62,974 nucleotides of DNA from Candidatus Endomicrobiellum agilis. Lineage in GTDB: Bacteria; Elusimicrobiota; Endomicrobiia; Endomicrobiales; Endomicrobiaceae. The translations under genes were made by a program, and so were the position numbers. The notes below the pieces were generated by a model. The model had not been told where the DNA came from and did not search any database. It worked only from the letters and a program-made list of their open reading frames with translations. Below are positions 48,271-62,170 of this stretch, one piece after another; positions within the stretch are counted from its first letter, which is position 1, and the number at the start of each line of letters is the position of its first letter. Location of the stretch: NCBI GenBank assembly GCA_020328155.1, contig JAIXMX010000002.1:65847-128820 (forward strand), written 5' to 3'.

Positions 48271-48325
48271 TTTGGTATAAAAATAAAACGTCTTTGTTTA
48301 TAATTTTTCTCATTGTTCCACTTCT

Positions 48326-49103
48326 TTACTTTTTACGATACCTTTCTTTTTTTCGTTGTATTTTTAGTGCCTAAAGCGTCTGTTTCAATTCTGCCAACTT
48401 ATTATCTCATATTATTTTTTCTTCTTCTTAATACTTATCAGGATTATCAAGTTTCAGTTTCTGCAAGTTTTCTATTAGTTTTTTTGTTCCTTGTCCAAAT
48501 TGTCCATCAAAGACTTCTATCCATAATATTCTGCATCTTGCTCTACATTCTTTAATATTTGTATCCTATGGGTCGCCTACGGGTCTATCTTTATATTGAG
48601 CGGTTTTTTCTAATAAACATTGAATAGTATAAAATTTCCCTATCAGCCATTCAAGATGAGTACCGGGCTATAGACTGACGCCGCAATAGTTGTTTTTCTT
48701 GTTTCTCCCGACTTCTTGCCTCTTTTTCACGTTTTGCTTGTTTTGTGTCACTGTCACAGACGCGGACTTGTTTTTATTAATATCTACTTTTTTGACAGAT
48801 GATAACTTTCTTTCAAATTTATCTTTTAAATAATAAAGTCCAAAATTACAAACAAAGTAATCCCAAATATATTAGGCGGCTTATTATACCAGCTCAAAGC
48901 TGTAAGCTCGGCACTGACAAGATGATTATCGGCGCCAATCGCAGAATTCTTAACAGGCAAATTAGCTGTAGCCCTCTGTCAGTTGAGGCTTGTCATTATG
49001 AAGATTATTATCAGTAGGTAAATCAGCGGATAAACTTTTATGAACAATCTGCTCTTTTGGCTGCCAGCCAGATACCCAAAATATGCACATATATTTTTTT
49101 CAT
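48326..49103 (-). pseudogene. Decayed lipoprotein with charged tail
   Basis: ATG at 49103 begins MKKIYVHILGIWLAA, a worn lipoprotein signal whose cysteine is lost. After frame shifts come an acidic linker (SADLPTDNNLHNDKP), one hydrophobic helix (FGITLFVILDFII), a Lys/Glu/Arg-rich coiled-coil-like segment (AKREKEARSREKQEKQ) and a final part with three in-frame stops (WIEVFDGQFGQGTKKLIENL). Same layout as the array members to its right; dead. Confidence 0.7.
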
Positions 49104-49262
49104 TCTATTTTCTTTTTACAAATCAGGCTCAGATATATAAATAAATTCAATGCGCTTTATAAGATTTTTATAGTAAACATTGCAAATAATTCCTTTAAGA
49201 GGTCTTACAGGCTTTTCCTTATCAACAAAATATCCATTGCGGGAAAGACCTGCAAGGCTGCT

Positions 49263-49752
49263 TCATACCGGCAGGATATTCATAAAATTCACAAATCCTA
49301 TAATCAAGCTCGGCATATTTAAAAAGATTAATTCGGCGCTTAAAAGAACGCAGCTCACTAGCAGCGTGATAATATGTTCTGCTCCTGCCTTCATACAACC
49401 TATAACCGCTATAGGTATAACAAGCAAAGCAACATAAGCAACAAAATTCAAAACACAATTTGCAACTGAGTTACCTGTATTGACCATAGGAAAATACCAA
49501 TGCCAAGAAATCCAAGAGGAAGGCTTACCATTATCGGGCGGGTGCGGGTTTAGTTTCATTCTGCGAAGGCGCTGGAATTTGATGTTGATGGCAGTGACAG
49601 TGGCAGCGTCGGCGTCGGCGTCGGCGTCGGCGTTGAAGCGCCTGCGCTTCCTTCATTATCAACGACAGTATTCACAGTGCTTCCATTATTAAGCAGCTTA
49701 CCACAGCCGGATATCAGATATATACACAAACATACACATATAATTTTTTCAT
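49263..49752 (-). pseudogene. Decayed lipoprotein with (Thr-Pro)n linker
   Basis: ATG at 49752 (MKKLYVYVCVYI then stop); a one-base shift restores ISGCGKLLNNGSTVNTVVDN and a Thr-Pro repeat coded by four copies of GCGTCG (49606-49629, plus strand). A further shift leads to a 98-codon frame with two hydrophobic helices (LNFVAYVALLVIPIAVIG). At least two frameshifts. Family member. Confidence 0.75.
49606..49632. repeat. Hexanucleotide tandem repeat (GCGTCG)4
   Basis: Four perfect copies plus a partial fifth, coding Thr-Pro on the minus strand in the linker of the dead lipoprotein. Confidence 0.95.
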
Positions 49753-49932
49753 TCTATTTCCTTAAACATTCTTATTTTTTTCCTCAACCAAATTTTCAGA
49801 GATTTCAAGAGTTTATCTCTTTTGACGAATTGGGTTTGTAAAGATATGCAGATTCAAAAAGTATGCCCTCAAAGGTATTAAAAACAGGTATTTCTTTTTC
49901 ATTTTTTTATCCTTTCTGTTTTTATTATACAC

Positions 49933-50345
49933 CTACGCTCCTCCTGCTGGTTCTGAGTTCTGGTCTGTGTTCTCGGGCGGGTTCTGTCGTTCGGTCGGTT
50001 GCTCATCTTCAGGAAATTCTACGACCTTCTTTCGGAGTCCTGTCTGGTAAAGGTAGTTCTTTTTTGCCTTTATCTGGTTAGATACAACTTTTGCCTGTGC
50101 TTTGCGGCTTTTCGTCTGCGTCTTTCCTATGTCGTTTTGTTCCATGATGTGAGGTTATGTCTTTTCTGTTCTGCATTGGCTTTTTGGTGTTGGAAAGGGT
50201 GCCGGCTTTGGTGTGGATGTGGGTGTAATTGAAGGCTCGGAGATTGAAATACTTACTTTGCTAACAGCGTTAAAATTCGCAGCGTTCCCGCCATTGTGAA
50301 GTCTATCGCAGTCAGACACCAAAAATATAAATATGCATATGATTT
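49933..50345 (-). pseudogene. Decayed lipoprotein without start codon
   Basis: The frame reads IICIFIFLVSDCDRLHNGGN and a Ser/Thr/Pro linker (PTSTPKPAPFPTPKS), but the expected ATG is ATA and a base is missing, so a TAA precedes it. One in-frame TAA at about 50146 separates it from a hydrophilic 70-codon end finishing EPAGGA. That C-terminal GGA resembles the ends of the proteins at 55267 and 61296. Confidence 0.6.
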
Positions 50346-50346
50346 T

Positions 50347-60524: not shown

Positions 60525-60545
60525 TTCAATATTGCACCTTTTACA

Positions 60546-60665
60546 TCATGGCAAGATATGAGGAAAATGAGGATACGTAACAAAGTGGTACACCTGCCAC
60601 GCTTCAAAAATGTCGCACAACAGGCGTAACTGTATGTCAATAATCTCATAATCTTTTTTCGTCAT
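60546..60665 (-). CDS. Possible 39-residue small protein
   Basis: MTKKDYEIIDIQLRLLCDIF and a His/Pro-rich end. Its start overlaps a 24-codon frame (60646-60720, MNVLSEKQQMILEVLRHL) whose ATG overlaps the stop of the coiled-coil gene upstream (ATGA). The two short frames may be one small gene split by a frameshift, or coupled small ORFs. Confidence 0.3.
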   Translation of the reverse strand: MTKKDYEIIDIQLRLLCDIFEAWQVYHFVTYPHFPHILP

Positions 60666-60716
60666 ACAGGTGTCTCAACACTTCTAAAATCATTTGTTGC
60701 TTCTCTGACAGAACGT

Positions 60717-61232
60717 TCATTTTTTTAATCTCCCTATCTCTAAACATTGAGCGTTAATGGTTGATTCTTGCAAAATAACCCTGTCTTTATACTCTTGTAC
60801 CTCTGTTGTCAGCTTTCTTATCTGCGCCTTTAAGTTTAAAAGACTTTGATTTGTTAAGCCTTCTCTGTCAATGTACTGCTGTCTTTGTGTTTGCAATTCT
60901 GAGAGTTGTTTTTGCAAAGAATTAATAGTGGTTTCTTTTACTTTGCAACTGTCCGCCAGATTCCTCCAATTTTGACTTTCAATAGCAAGTTGATTTTTCA
61001 ATCTGGCTATTTCTTCTCTTAAAGCTGGTAGTTTCTTTGCTTCTTCTTGCCAATAATTGCTTGATACTGTCGCGTCTTTAAGTTTTATATTATACTCGTC
61101 TACAGCTCTTTGCAAGTTAGCAACGGTGGTTTCACTCATAGTGATTGCGTCTTTTTTCTGGGCAATCGTCGCCCTAAGTTCCTTAATTTCGTTCTCTTGG
61201 TTCTGGGCAGTCTGCTCGAGAGTTGAAATCAC
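60717..61232 (-). CDS. Coiled-coil protein
   Basis: 171 residues, almost all heptad-like (ISTLEQTAQNQENEIKELRA, VANLQRAVDEYNIKLKDA, SLQKQLSELQTQRQQ). GTG start at 61232 has no clear ribosome site. It is in the same frame as the lipoprotein upstream (61296), separated by two TAG codons, so it may be the severed tail of that protein. Layout then equals the intact lipoprotein-plus-coiled-coil at 55702. Confidence 0.5.
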   Translation of the reverse strand: MISTLEQTAQNQENEIKELRATIAQKKDAITMSETTVANLQRAVDEYNIKLKDATVSSNYWQEEAKKLPALREEIARLKNQLAIESQNWRNLADSCKVKETTINSLQKQLSELQTQRQQYIDREGLTNQSLLNLKAQIRKLTTEVQEYKDRVILQESTINAQCLEIGRLKK

Positions 61233-61295
61233 CTGCTTCTGAGCGGTCCACCATTCCCTTTGTGTATGAGGCTATAGGGTCGGGTGTATCTTCCT

Positions 61296-62039
61296 CTACG
61301 TCGCCCCCCCTGCTTCTGTCGTTTCCGTCGTCGGGGGCGTCAAATCCTCTGTTTTTTTTTTCGCTTCTGGGTGCTTAGATATATAACCCCTCTTTTTTAT
61401 TCTCTTGTGTTTCTTTTCTTTTGGCGTGTCCAGCAAGGGGTCTGTTTTAGATAAAGATTTGCTTCTTATCCTTTCTTCATCAGAAGTAGAGCTGCTCTCA
61501 GAAACTTCTTCTTCATATTCGCTGTCAGAAACATTCTCAGAGGTCTCGCTTAGTTCGGTGTGTTTCAGCTTCTTATCCTGTGGAACGTCTGAAGAAGAAG
61601 GAATAAAAGGGTCTTCTGATTGTTTAAATTCAGGAGGCTTCTTCTCTTCAGGTTTACCCTTGAACTTATCCTTTATCCAATCCCATACTCCTATTGCTTT
61701 ATCCTTTCCTTTCCCGCCATAGTCTTTCAATTTCCCCCATGCCATAACATGAACATCATAATGATATCCAACAGCGCAAAGCACAGCACTAACAATGATA
61801 ACTGTAATAGGAAGCCAATGCTCTTTCGTATATCCGTAAGCTCTTGAGATATAGCTTTTGTTCTCTTCTTTTGTCTCAGAAGACTCCTTTTGAAGCTTTT
61901 TTACAGGGGTTTCTTCTTTCTTAACCGCCATCTGTTGCTCGGGTTGAGGCAACGGCTTCGTCTGCGTCTGTTTACCGCACCCTGCGGCTAAAAATATACA
62001 TATACATATACATATACATATACATATACACTTTTTCAT
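61296..62039 (-). CDS. Lipoprotein with Cys-Ile repeat signal and highly charged tail
   Basis: 247 residues. Signal MKKCICICIC...FLAAGC with six hexamer repeats, polar linker, a hydrophobic helix (about 75-94, LPITVIIVSAVLCAVGYHY), then a Lys/Glu/Ser-rich disordered tail (SETSENVSDSEYEEEVSE, KEKKHKRIKKRGY) ending TEAGGAT. A G7 tract (C7 on plus, 61304-61310) immediately precedes the stop; one more G would extend the frame by some 40 residues. Possibly the first gene of the 59-62 kb operon. Confidence 0.65.
   Translation of the reverse strand: MKKCICICICICICIFLAAGCGKQTQTKPLPQPEQQMAVKKEETPVKKLQKESSETKEENKSYISRAYGYTKEHWLPITVIIVSAVLCAVGYHYDVHVMAWGKLKDYGGKGKDKAIGVWDWIKDKFKGKPEEKKPPEFKQSEDPFIPSSSDVPQDKKLKHTELSETSENVSDSEYEEEVSESSSTSDEERIRSKSLSKTDPLLDTPKEKKHKRIKKRGYISKHPEAKKKTEDLTPPTTETTEAGGAT
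61304..61310. repeat. C7 homopolymer at the lipoprotein 3' end
   Basis: Seven C on the plus strand inside the last codons of the gene at 61296; slip-prone. A T10 tract (61352-61361) lies just upstream in the same gene. Confidence 0.9.
61995..62030. repeat. Hexanucleotide tandem repeat (TATACA)6 in a signal peptide
   Basis: Six perfect copies coding (Cys-Ile)n on the minus strand; same repeat class as 60471-60512. Confidence 0.97.
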
Positions 62040-62170
62040 TTATGTGTCCTTAAATTAATCTCTGTCATAATAACAGCGATATTATTCTTTTCATTTTTTT
62101 GTATAATTTAGTTACAAGAACATTCTTCTACTTACAAAAATAAAGAGCATAGAGCATAGCCGCAAAGCGT

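Follow-up and report, generated by a model that had tools for sequence, protein, structure and literature searches.

Phage u-spanins, such as gp11 of T1, have a lipoprotein signal as well as a membrane helix at the C-terminus, and the part between the two is periplasmic (PMC6139136). The SitA toxins of myxobacteria have conserved lipoprotein heads and unrelated tails, and they are found on mobile elements (PMC5562445). The Vpma lipoproteins of mycoplasmas are displayed on the cell surface and switched by Xer1 recombination (PMC2268961, PMC5634654), and TrbK is a small, plasmid-borne lipoprotein of the cytoplasmic membrane, with aspartate at position +2, whose C-terminal region is needed for exclusion (PMC8923210). 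Here we describe an array of lipoprotein genes that shares parts with each of these systems. It is located in a 62,974-nucleotide stretch of the Candidatus Endomicrobiellum agilis genome (contig C11:65847-128820, hereafter the window), the right edge of which is the contig end. C-numbers denote contigs of this genome, which is assembled in 23 contigs, and L-numbers denote the loci that we read.

The array lies between a tRNA-Met gene (48197-48270) and open reading frames (ORFs) for a ribbon-helix-helix (RHH) protein and an integrase (62213-62970). It holds 16 lipoprotein copies, live or dead and all on the minus strand: seven complete, one near-complete, three short ones with a signal peptidase II (SPII) signal, and five degenerate or headless. 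Two remnants of a partner gene, described below, lie in the same interval. A complete copy consists of an SPII signal, a linker, a membrane helix and a tail. The first-pass annotation of this DNA had proposed such an array with about a dozen members, and we can confirm it with a somewhat higher number. All the variable ends it named could be located: the GYK module (at 52157, 59288 and 51553), a coiled coil (55702-56271), a Cys-rich tail (55267-55614) and a charged one (61296-62039).

About 20 such arrays, the one in the window included, are spread over the 1.29 Mb genome, in which a single window protein finds 81 places by tblastn at E<=10, most of them significant. A lipobox scan of the array loci (328 kb) gave 75 SPII ORFs, 55 of them with a later helix, compared with eight and one, respectively, in 400 kb of background elsewhere in the same genome (Fisher p=0.001 for the helix fraction). 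The signal region matches another one by DNA in 69 of the 75 ORFs and a background lipoprotein in none; counted as pairs at E<=1e-4, there were 858 matches among 2775 array-array pairs and 0 among 525 array-background pairs. It needs to be mentioned that members of one family are non-independent in all statistics, that many arrays lie at contig ends and that some contain N stretches.

Outside this genome, about 640 kb sampled from five relatives contained 13 SPII-like ORFs, four of them with a later helix; these four are multi-helix or short proteins, and the array plan was not found there. A search among Elusimicrobiota had been proposed in the first-pass annotation, and sequence and profile searches of 59 relatives gave no credible homologue; two weak hits (G031, E=7e-4; G021, E=1.5e-4) were dismissed, as both contain stop codons. 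Scans of GTDB r220 and IMG/VR gave no homologue either, with the limited sensitivity of the short signal-peptide patterns used. Nor was there the clear homology to unrelated known families that would have spoken against the annotation: among the members tested, none matched Pfam, NCBIfam, PHROGs or PADLOC above cut-off, and PADLOC recognised no known defence gene except for one chance hit to a coiled coil. About 75 genes of a 1.29 Mb genome are devoted to one protein plan that is unrecognised by any library.

SPII signals were called with a PROSITE PS00013-type lipobox rule and helices by hydropathy. Background controls were run for both, and they uphold the signals and helices as membrane segments. 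We therefore regard the predicted architecture of SPII signal, linker, helix and tail as very probable. The distance from the cysteine to the helix has a median of 59 residues (interquartile range (IQR) 52-67, n=49), or 62.5 under a wider lipobox rule (IQR 52-67, n=54). It stays within 46-72 residues in the CV.PPRQL, KSQP and m43-like head families, whose linkers are unrelated in sequence, and in the GYK-type family the median is 64, with a few longer outliers. In 28 members the part after the helix is richer in lysine and arginine than the part preceding it, and in eight it is poorer (p=8e-5, members not independent). A lipidated N-terminus is made on the periplasmic side, and a stop-transfer helix then leaves the tail in the cytoplasm; by this established membrane-protein biology, and because basic residues follow the helix, the tails are predicted to be cytoplasmic. 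The topology suggested by the first-pass annotation, with the linker outside and the tail possibly inside, thus agrees with the charge bias and stands as a prediction from sequence. The genome encodes LspA, LolA and a LolC/E relative (the latter below the curated cut-off), so lipidation is expected and sorting to the outer membrane is possible. Aspartate occupies position +2 in 25 of 70 members; in E. coli this residue favours inner-membrane retention, a rule which may not hold in this phylum. An AlphaFold model of the GYK tail (predicted local distance difference test (pLDDT) 73) has a long helix and two long strands, and it gave no fold match in the PDB at E<=0.001.

In each gene, the signal peptide and linker make up a conserved head, and the helix and tail form a variable end. 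DNA similarity between members mostly sets in shortly upstream of the start codon, and its commonest end point is 50-75 nt inside the gene, where the signal peptide ends. Pairwise DNA identity within the GYK subfamily averages 90% in the signal, 90% in the linker, 71% in the helix and 55% in the tail. Max-chi breakpoints were significant at p<0.05 in 13 of 13 pairs tested across subfamilies, and at p<0.01 in 11; a C6/C23 pair differs by about 5% before the breakpoint and by 86% after it. The heads cluster by BLAST, and the tails form more than 30 clusters. The tails change as genes are duplicated in tandem and recombine, most breakpoints being close to the helix. The drop in identity from head to tail, together with the sharpness of the breakpoints, makes turnover of the tails by recombination quite probable.

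Pooled over GYK pairs, the ratio of nonsynonymous to synonymous substitution rates (dN/dS) amounts to 0.45 for the signal, compared with about 1.05-1.2 for the linker, helix and tail (tail 1.06). For helix and tail together, five non-overlapping close pairs gave 1.30 (0.98-1.75). The probability that the frames of all five pairs would stay open under neutrality is 1.6e-6, with indels ignored, a result that is suggestive only, because intact copies were chosen for this test. GYK lipoproteins are followed by a partner gene, MPENVE, encoding 61-68 amino acids, in which third positions change most and dN/dS over 24 copies is 0.23. Since this gene is constrained in the same arrays, the fast change of the tails is probably more than an array property, and we lean towards diversifying selection on them. 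As divergence rises abruptly from head to tail and the conserved neighbour provides an internal control, population sequencing could test the question of selection directly. Integron cassettes were considered as well, as a 145-bp intergenic repeat resembled attC; this candidate was rejected, because the repeat is the MPENVE gene itself, its coding nature being evident from the third-position changes and the low dN/dS.

What carries these arrays? On other contigs, the genes neighbouring them include a Rep3 initiator (C9; Rep3_N, E=3e-7), a Prim-Pol/CHC2 primase with a DnaB helicase (C15) and another DnaB helicase (C10, C2), and Prim-Pol/CHC2, DnaB_C and Phage_integrase were all matched among them. 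Full or partial integrases lie near arrays on C15, C10 and C23, and RHH genes on C15 and C20. Near-identical pieces of the element (85-98% DNA identity) occur on C2, C7, C9, C10, C11, C15, C20 and C23. In other bacteria, relatives of the window integrase sit with DnaB, and one of them, on a Treponemataceae contig, also with a Rep3-like gene, which fits a plasmid-like element; an integrase fragment is present in Candidatus Endomicrobiellum roisinitermitis. The arrays are thus very probably cargo of a plasmid-like element family lodged repeatedly in one small genome, and some of them now stand apart from any element gene. A phage origin was rejected: the phage-type hits are to integrase, DnaB and primase only, with none to a capsid, portal or terminase among the neighbours scanned. 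Pattern searches of IMG/VR with the Rep3 and g201 proteins found nothing. Insertion at tRNA genes was discarded as a general rule, as only the window and C10 arrays adjoin tRNAs and no second tRNA-Met 3' end was seen in the array loci searched. The first-pass annotation, which could see neither the genome-wide extent of the family nor its tie to mobile-element genes, missed this context as well as the recombination between heads and tails, and overlooked the conserved partner gene.

Taken as a whole, we tentatively favour the view that these are element-borne, double-anchored polymorphic lipoproteins which serve exclusion or discrimination between elements. Once such a protein has been exported and lipidated, the lipid would hold its N-terminus, the linker of about 60 residues would be periplasmic, the helix would stop transfer in the inner membrane and the tail would point into the cytoplasm. 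The sequence features support this predicted layout, and the fixed length of the linker would suit a tether able to reach the outer membrane via the Lol pathway. Each tail might then recognise a different incoming element, phage or component of the machinery. Because the fast part is predicted to face the cytoplasm and the adjacent small gene is conserved, we infer that the target is more likely an entity entering or residing in the cell, such as an incoming element or phage, than the surface of the host, and favour this over host-surface variation. The evidence for the anatomy is much stronger than that for the function, and an exclusion role as such is rather doubtful. Equally doubtful is the more specific notion of an undescribed polymorphic envelope class, with a double anchor, a length-constrained tether, a diversifying cytoplasmic tail and element-borne exclusion or discrimination, one subfamily of which would be paired with a conserved cytosolic protein. 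Should the tails indeed diversify where they face the cytoplasm, the arms race would take place within the cell, with the arrays offering a tractable case of mobile elements policing one another in a small-genome symbiont. They may be an unrecognised way for plasmid-like elements to recognise or exclude one another.

Several observations weigh against this proposal. The exclusion lipoprotein Cor (NF047972) was matched only at E=0.01, with 14.6 and 15.8 bits against a cut-off of 31 bits, and the match spans the first 31-36 residues, little beyond the signal peptide. Around half of the array loci lack an element gene within the stretch that was read, and no conjugation, capsid or terminase gene accompanies the element in the part of the neighbours that was scanned. 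The membrane helices were called by hydropathy, and some lipoproteins, namely those with GYD repeats, the CDQLSD type and several short ones, have no helix. The dN/dS interval just includes 1, with which relaxed constraint in the tails is compatible, and the partner gene is intact in only eight of 24 copies.

On one hand, then, the arrays could be mostly non-adaptive, the integration of elements and tandem duplication having spread the head, with tails that drift under weak constraint amid continual birth and death of genes. The dN/dS close to 1 in linker and tail, the many dead copies, the low-complexity tails and a genome probably of a reductive lineage would all agree with this. However, the frames stay open at divergences where neutrality would break them (in the five pairs above, with the selection of intact copies in mind), the partner gene is constrained in the same arrays, and the linker keeps a narrow length despite differing sequences, so that we consider this scenario unlikely, if worth keeping in mind. 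On the other hand, the proteins might vary to cope with a presumed flagellate host, as the surface lipoproteins of mycoplasmas do, the duplicated arrays being a repertoire. Endomicrobiellum is a genus of termite-gut flagellate symbionts (PMC11257099, PMC12483993), intracellular in these hosts (PMC11257099). Absence from 59 relatives is what a host-specific repertoire would show, the tails evolve fast, and in-frame Ile-Cys repeats, (IC)n, vary the length of the signal. This idea seems unlikely too: because of the helix, the variable tail should stay inside the cytoplasm and be concealed from the host, element genes accompany the arrays, and no switching promoter or invertible site was identified.

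A structural role, in which a lipid in the outer membrane and a helix in the inner one couple or fuse both membranes in a spanin-like way, would explain why linkers of most head families keep to 46-72 residues despite unrelated sequences. LolA and a LolC/E relative are present, and u-spanins do have a signal plus a helix (PMC6139136). Nevertheless, such tethers are improbable here, considering the aspartate at +2 in over a third of the members, which in E. coli would favour their retention in the inner membrane, the long tails past the helix, which are not a spanin feature, the lack of a recognised holin or endolysin in the loci examined, and the fact that lysis needs no dozens of copies. Finally, a conserved lipidated head could deliver variable toxic tails to neighbouring cells. 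The conserved SPII heads, unrelated tails, mobile elements and several alleles per genome are as in SitA (PMC5562445), but none of the tails tested resembled a toxin family, no PDB counterpart was found at E<=0.001 for the single tail that was modelled, the helix would retain the tail in the producing cell, and the small gene alongside, being conserved, does not change together with the tails as an immunity gene would. We regard such toxins as very improbable.

The copies in the window, all on the minus strand, illustrate the state of the family. Next to the tRNA-Met gene (48197-48270, plus strand), a candidate attachment site whose 3' end has no second copy in the array loci searched, lie a dead, frameshifted GYK-type copy (49419-49741, tblastn pieces in two frames), a dead head (50194-50337) and a frameshifted copy whose head remains open as a 69-residue ORF (50434-50837). 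They are followed by a degenerate MPENVE copy (50839-51023), a short SPII ORF of 64 residues without a clear helix (51238-51432), a second degenerate MPENVE copy (51432-51615) and a headless copy with GYK-type linker, helix and tail, which lacks a signal peptide (51553-52125). The complete gene at 52157-52801 (a longer start at 52807 is possible) has a Pro/Ser/Thr linker and a GYK-module tail, and the one at 53320-54228 (302 residues) a long, charged tail. A near-complete gene (54810-55163), truncated with respect to its paralogue C15:5281-5724, has a GTG start and a non-standard lipobox, VSDC. Further complete genes have an (SP)n linker with the Cys-rich tail (55267-55614), a CV.PPRQL head with the coiled-coil tail (55702-56271) and a long Pro/Thr linker with an acidic tail (56945-57574); the frameshifted copy at 56299-56671 has a head resembling that of 53320-54228. 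An intact MPENVE gene of 65 residues, without a signal peptide (59078-59275), is directly downstream of a complete GYK-module lipoprotein (59288-59896). Then come two short SPII ORFs, one of 74 residues without a helix (59904-60128) and one without a clear helix whose signal peptide is (IC)n from a hexanucleotide repeat (60189-60524), and a complete gene with an (IC)n signal and a charged tail (61296-62039), which adjoins the RHH gene as on C20 and C15. The RHH-like protein of the mobile element (62213-62581) shares 95% DNA identity with C20, and the tyrosine recombinase (62713-62970) is a C-terminal part cut by the contig end, with a full paralogue at C15:8010-8987. ORFs outside the family lie at 51020-51286, 52842-53327, 57625-57975, 58515-58967 and 60717-61232; that at 58515-58967 is probably an element gene, its paralogue on C17 adjoining a g201-type element gene. 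The (Ile-Cys)n cores are encoded by ATATGT-type repeats (window 60471-60513 and 61994-62030) that differ in number between paralogues, and slippage would alter signal length in frame.

Some observations from other loci deserve mention. A perfect 1596-bp tandem duplication with a lipoprotein and a coiled-coil gene (C20:63835-67036, L037) has N's nearby and is possibly an assembly artefact. A five- to six-gene lipoprotein array (C18:16815-20389, L034) lies, far from element genes, between paralogous ORFs resembling two glycine decarboxylase subunits. Lipoproteins with GYDxx pentapeptide repeats occur in L027 (C2; 7155-7778, 8471-8863, 10483-11160) and L035 (6185-6460); the one tested gave no Pfam match and only a weak, below-cut-off match to DotG/IcmE, and a structure model of GYD repeats was discarded as too poor (pLDDT 65.5). 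L041 (C23:38000-57000) contains, at about 3737-4752, a broken gokushovirus-like (Microviridae) replication initiator, with PHROG 942 hits in two neighbouring ORFs; a lipoprotein gene and a Rep gene bearing DnaA_N are nearby. Some arrays have DNA methyltransferase-like genes at their side (C9:7691-8914, L029; C16:118355-119410, L033), which fits restriction-modification genes moving in this lineage. In a relative from the same genus, L132 (G013:C100, 3417 bp) has a DnaB-like gene and a g201 relative without a lipoprotein, perhaps an element without cargo.

How, then, does this locus compare with the known systems? The first-pass annotation knew of no described family with this architecture, a statement too broad as worded, for u-spanins (PMC6139136) and SitA (PMC5562445) share parts of it; for the combination of lipid, fixed-length linker, helix and variable cytoplasmic tail, we found no exact match. 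The N-terminal SPII lipobox of u-spanins is present here in 75 ORFs. Unlike their single C-terminal helix, the helix here begins about 60 residues after the cysteine, and in most cases a tail of tens to hundreds of residues comes after it; the linkers are short and of low complexity, and the multi-copy arrays have no recognised lysis genes, with no convincing holin or endolysin match among those neighbours that were scanned. As in SitA, the SPII heads are conserved, the tails are unrelated, a genome holds several alleles and the context is that of mobile elements. The arrays differ in having a membrane helix and a conserved neighbour gene, whereas SitA tails are nuclease-like and have cognate immunity proteins; no toxin or nuclease domain was matched above cut-off in Pfam, NCBIfam or the PDB in the members tested, and in the GYK type the adjacent gene is conserved (dN/dS 0.23) instead of varying with the tail as a cognate immunity gene would. 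Vpma lipoprotein genes share a 5' end, as do the members here, and form a multi-gene array with a tyrosine recombinase. In contrast, each of our genes has its own start, the predicted location of the variable part is the cytoplasm, and although an integrase is linked, we saw no inverted repeats with switching geometry as in Vpma or Vsp. TrbK has no sequence match here and is encoded by a conjugative plasmid; it has not been described as forming arrays or having a partner gene, and no conjugation genes were recognised among the neighbours scanned, the element being split over contigs. Nevertheless, TrbK shares aspartate at +2 with part of the array members and provides a functional precedent for exclusion.

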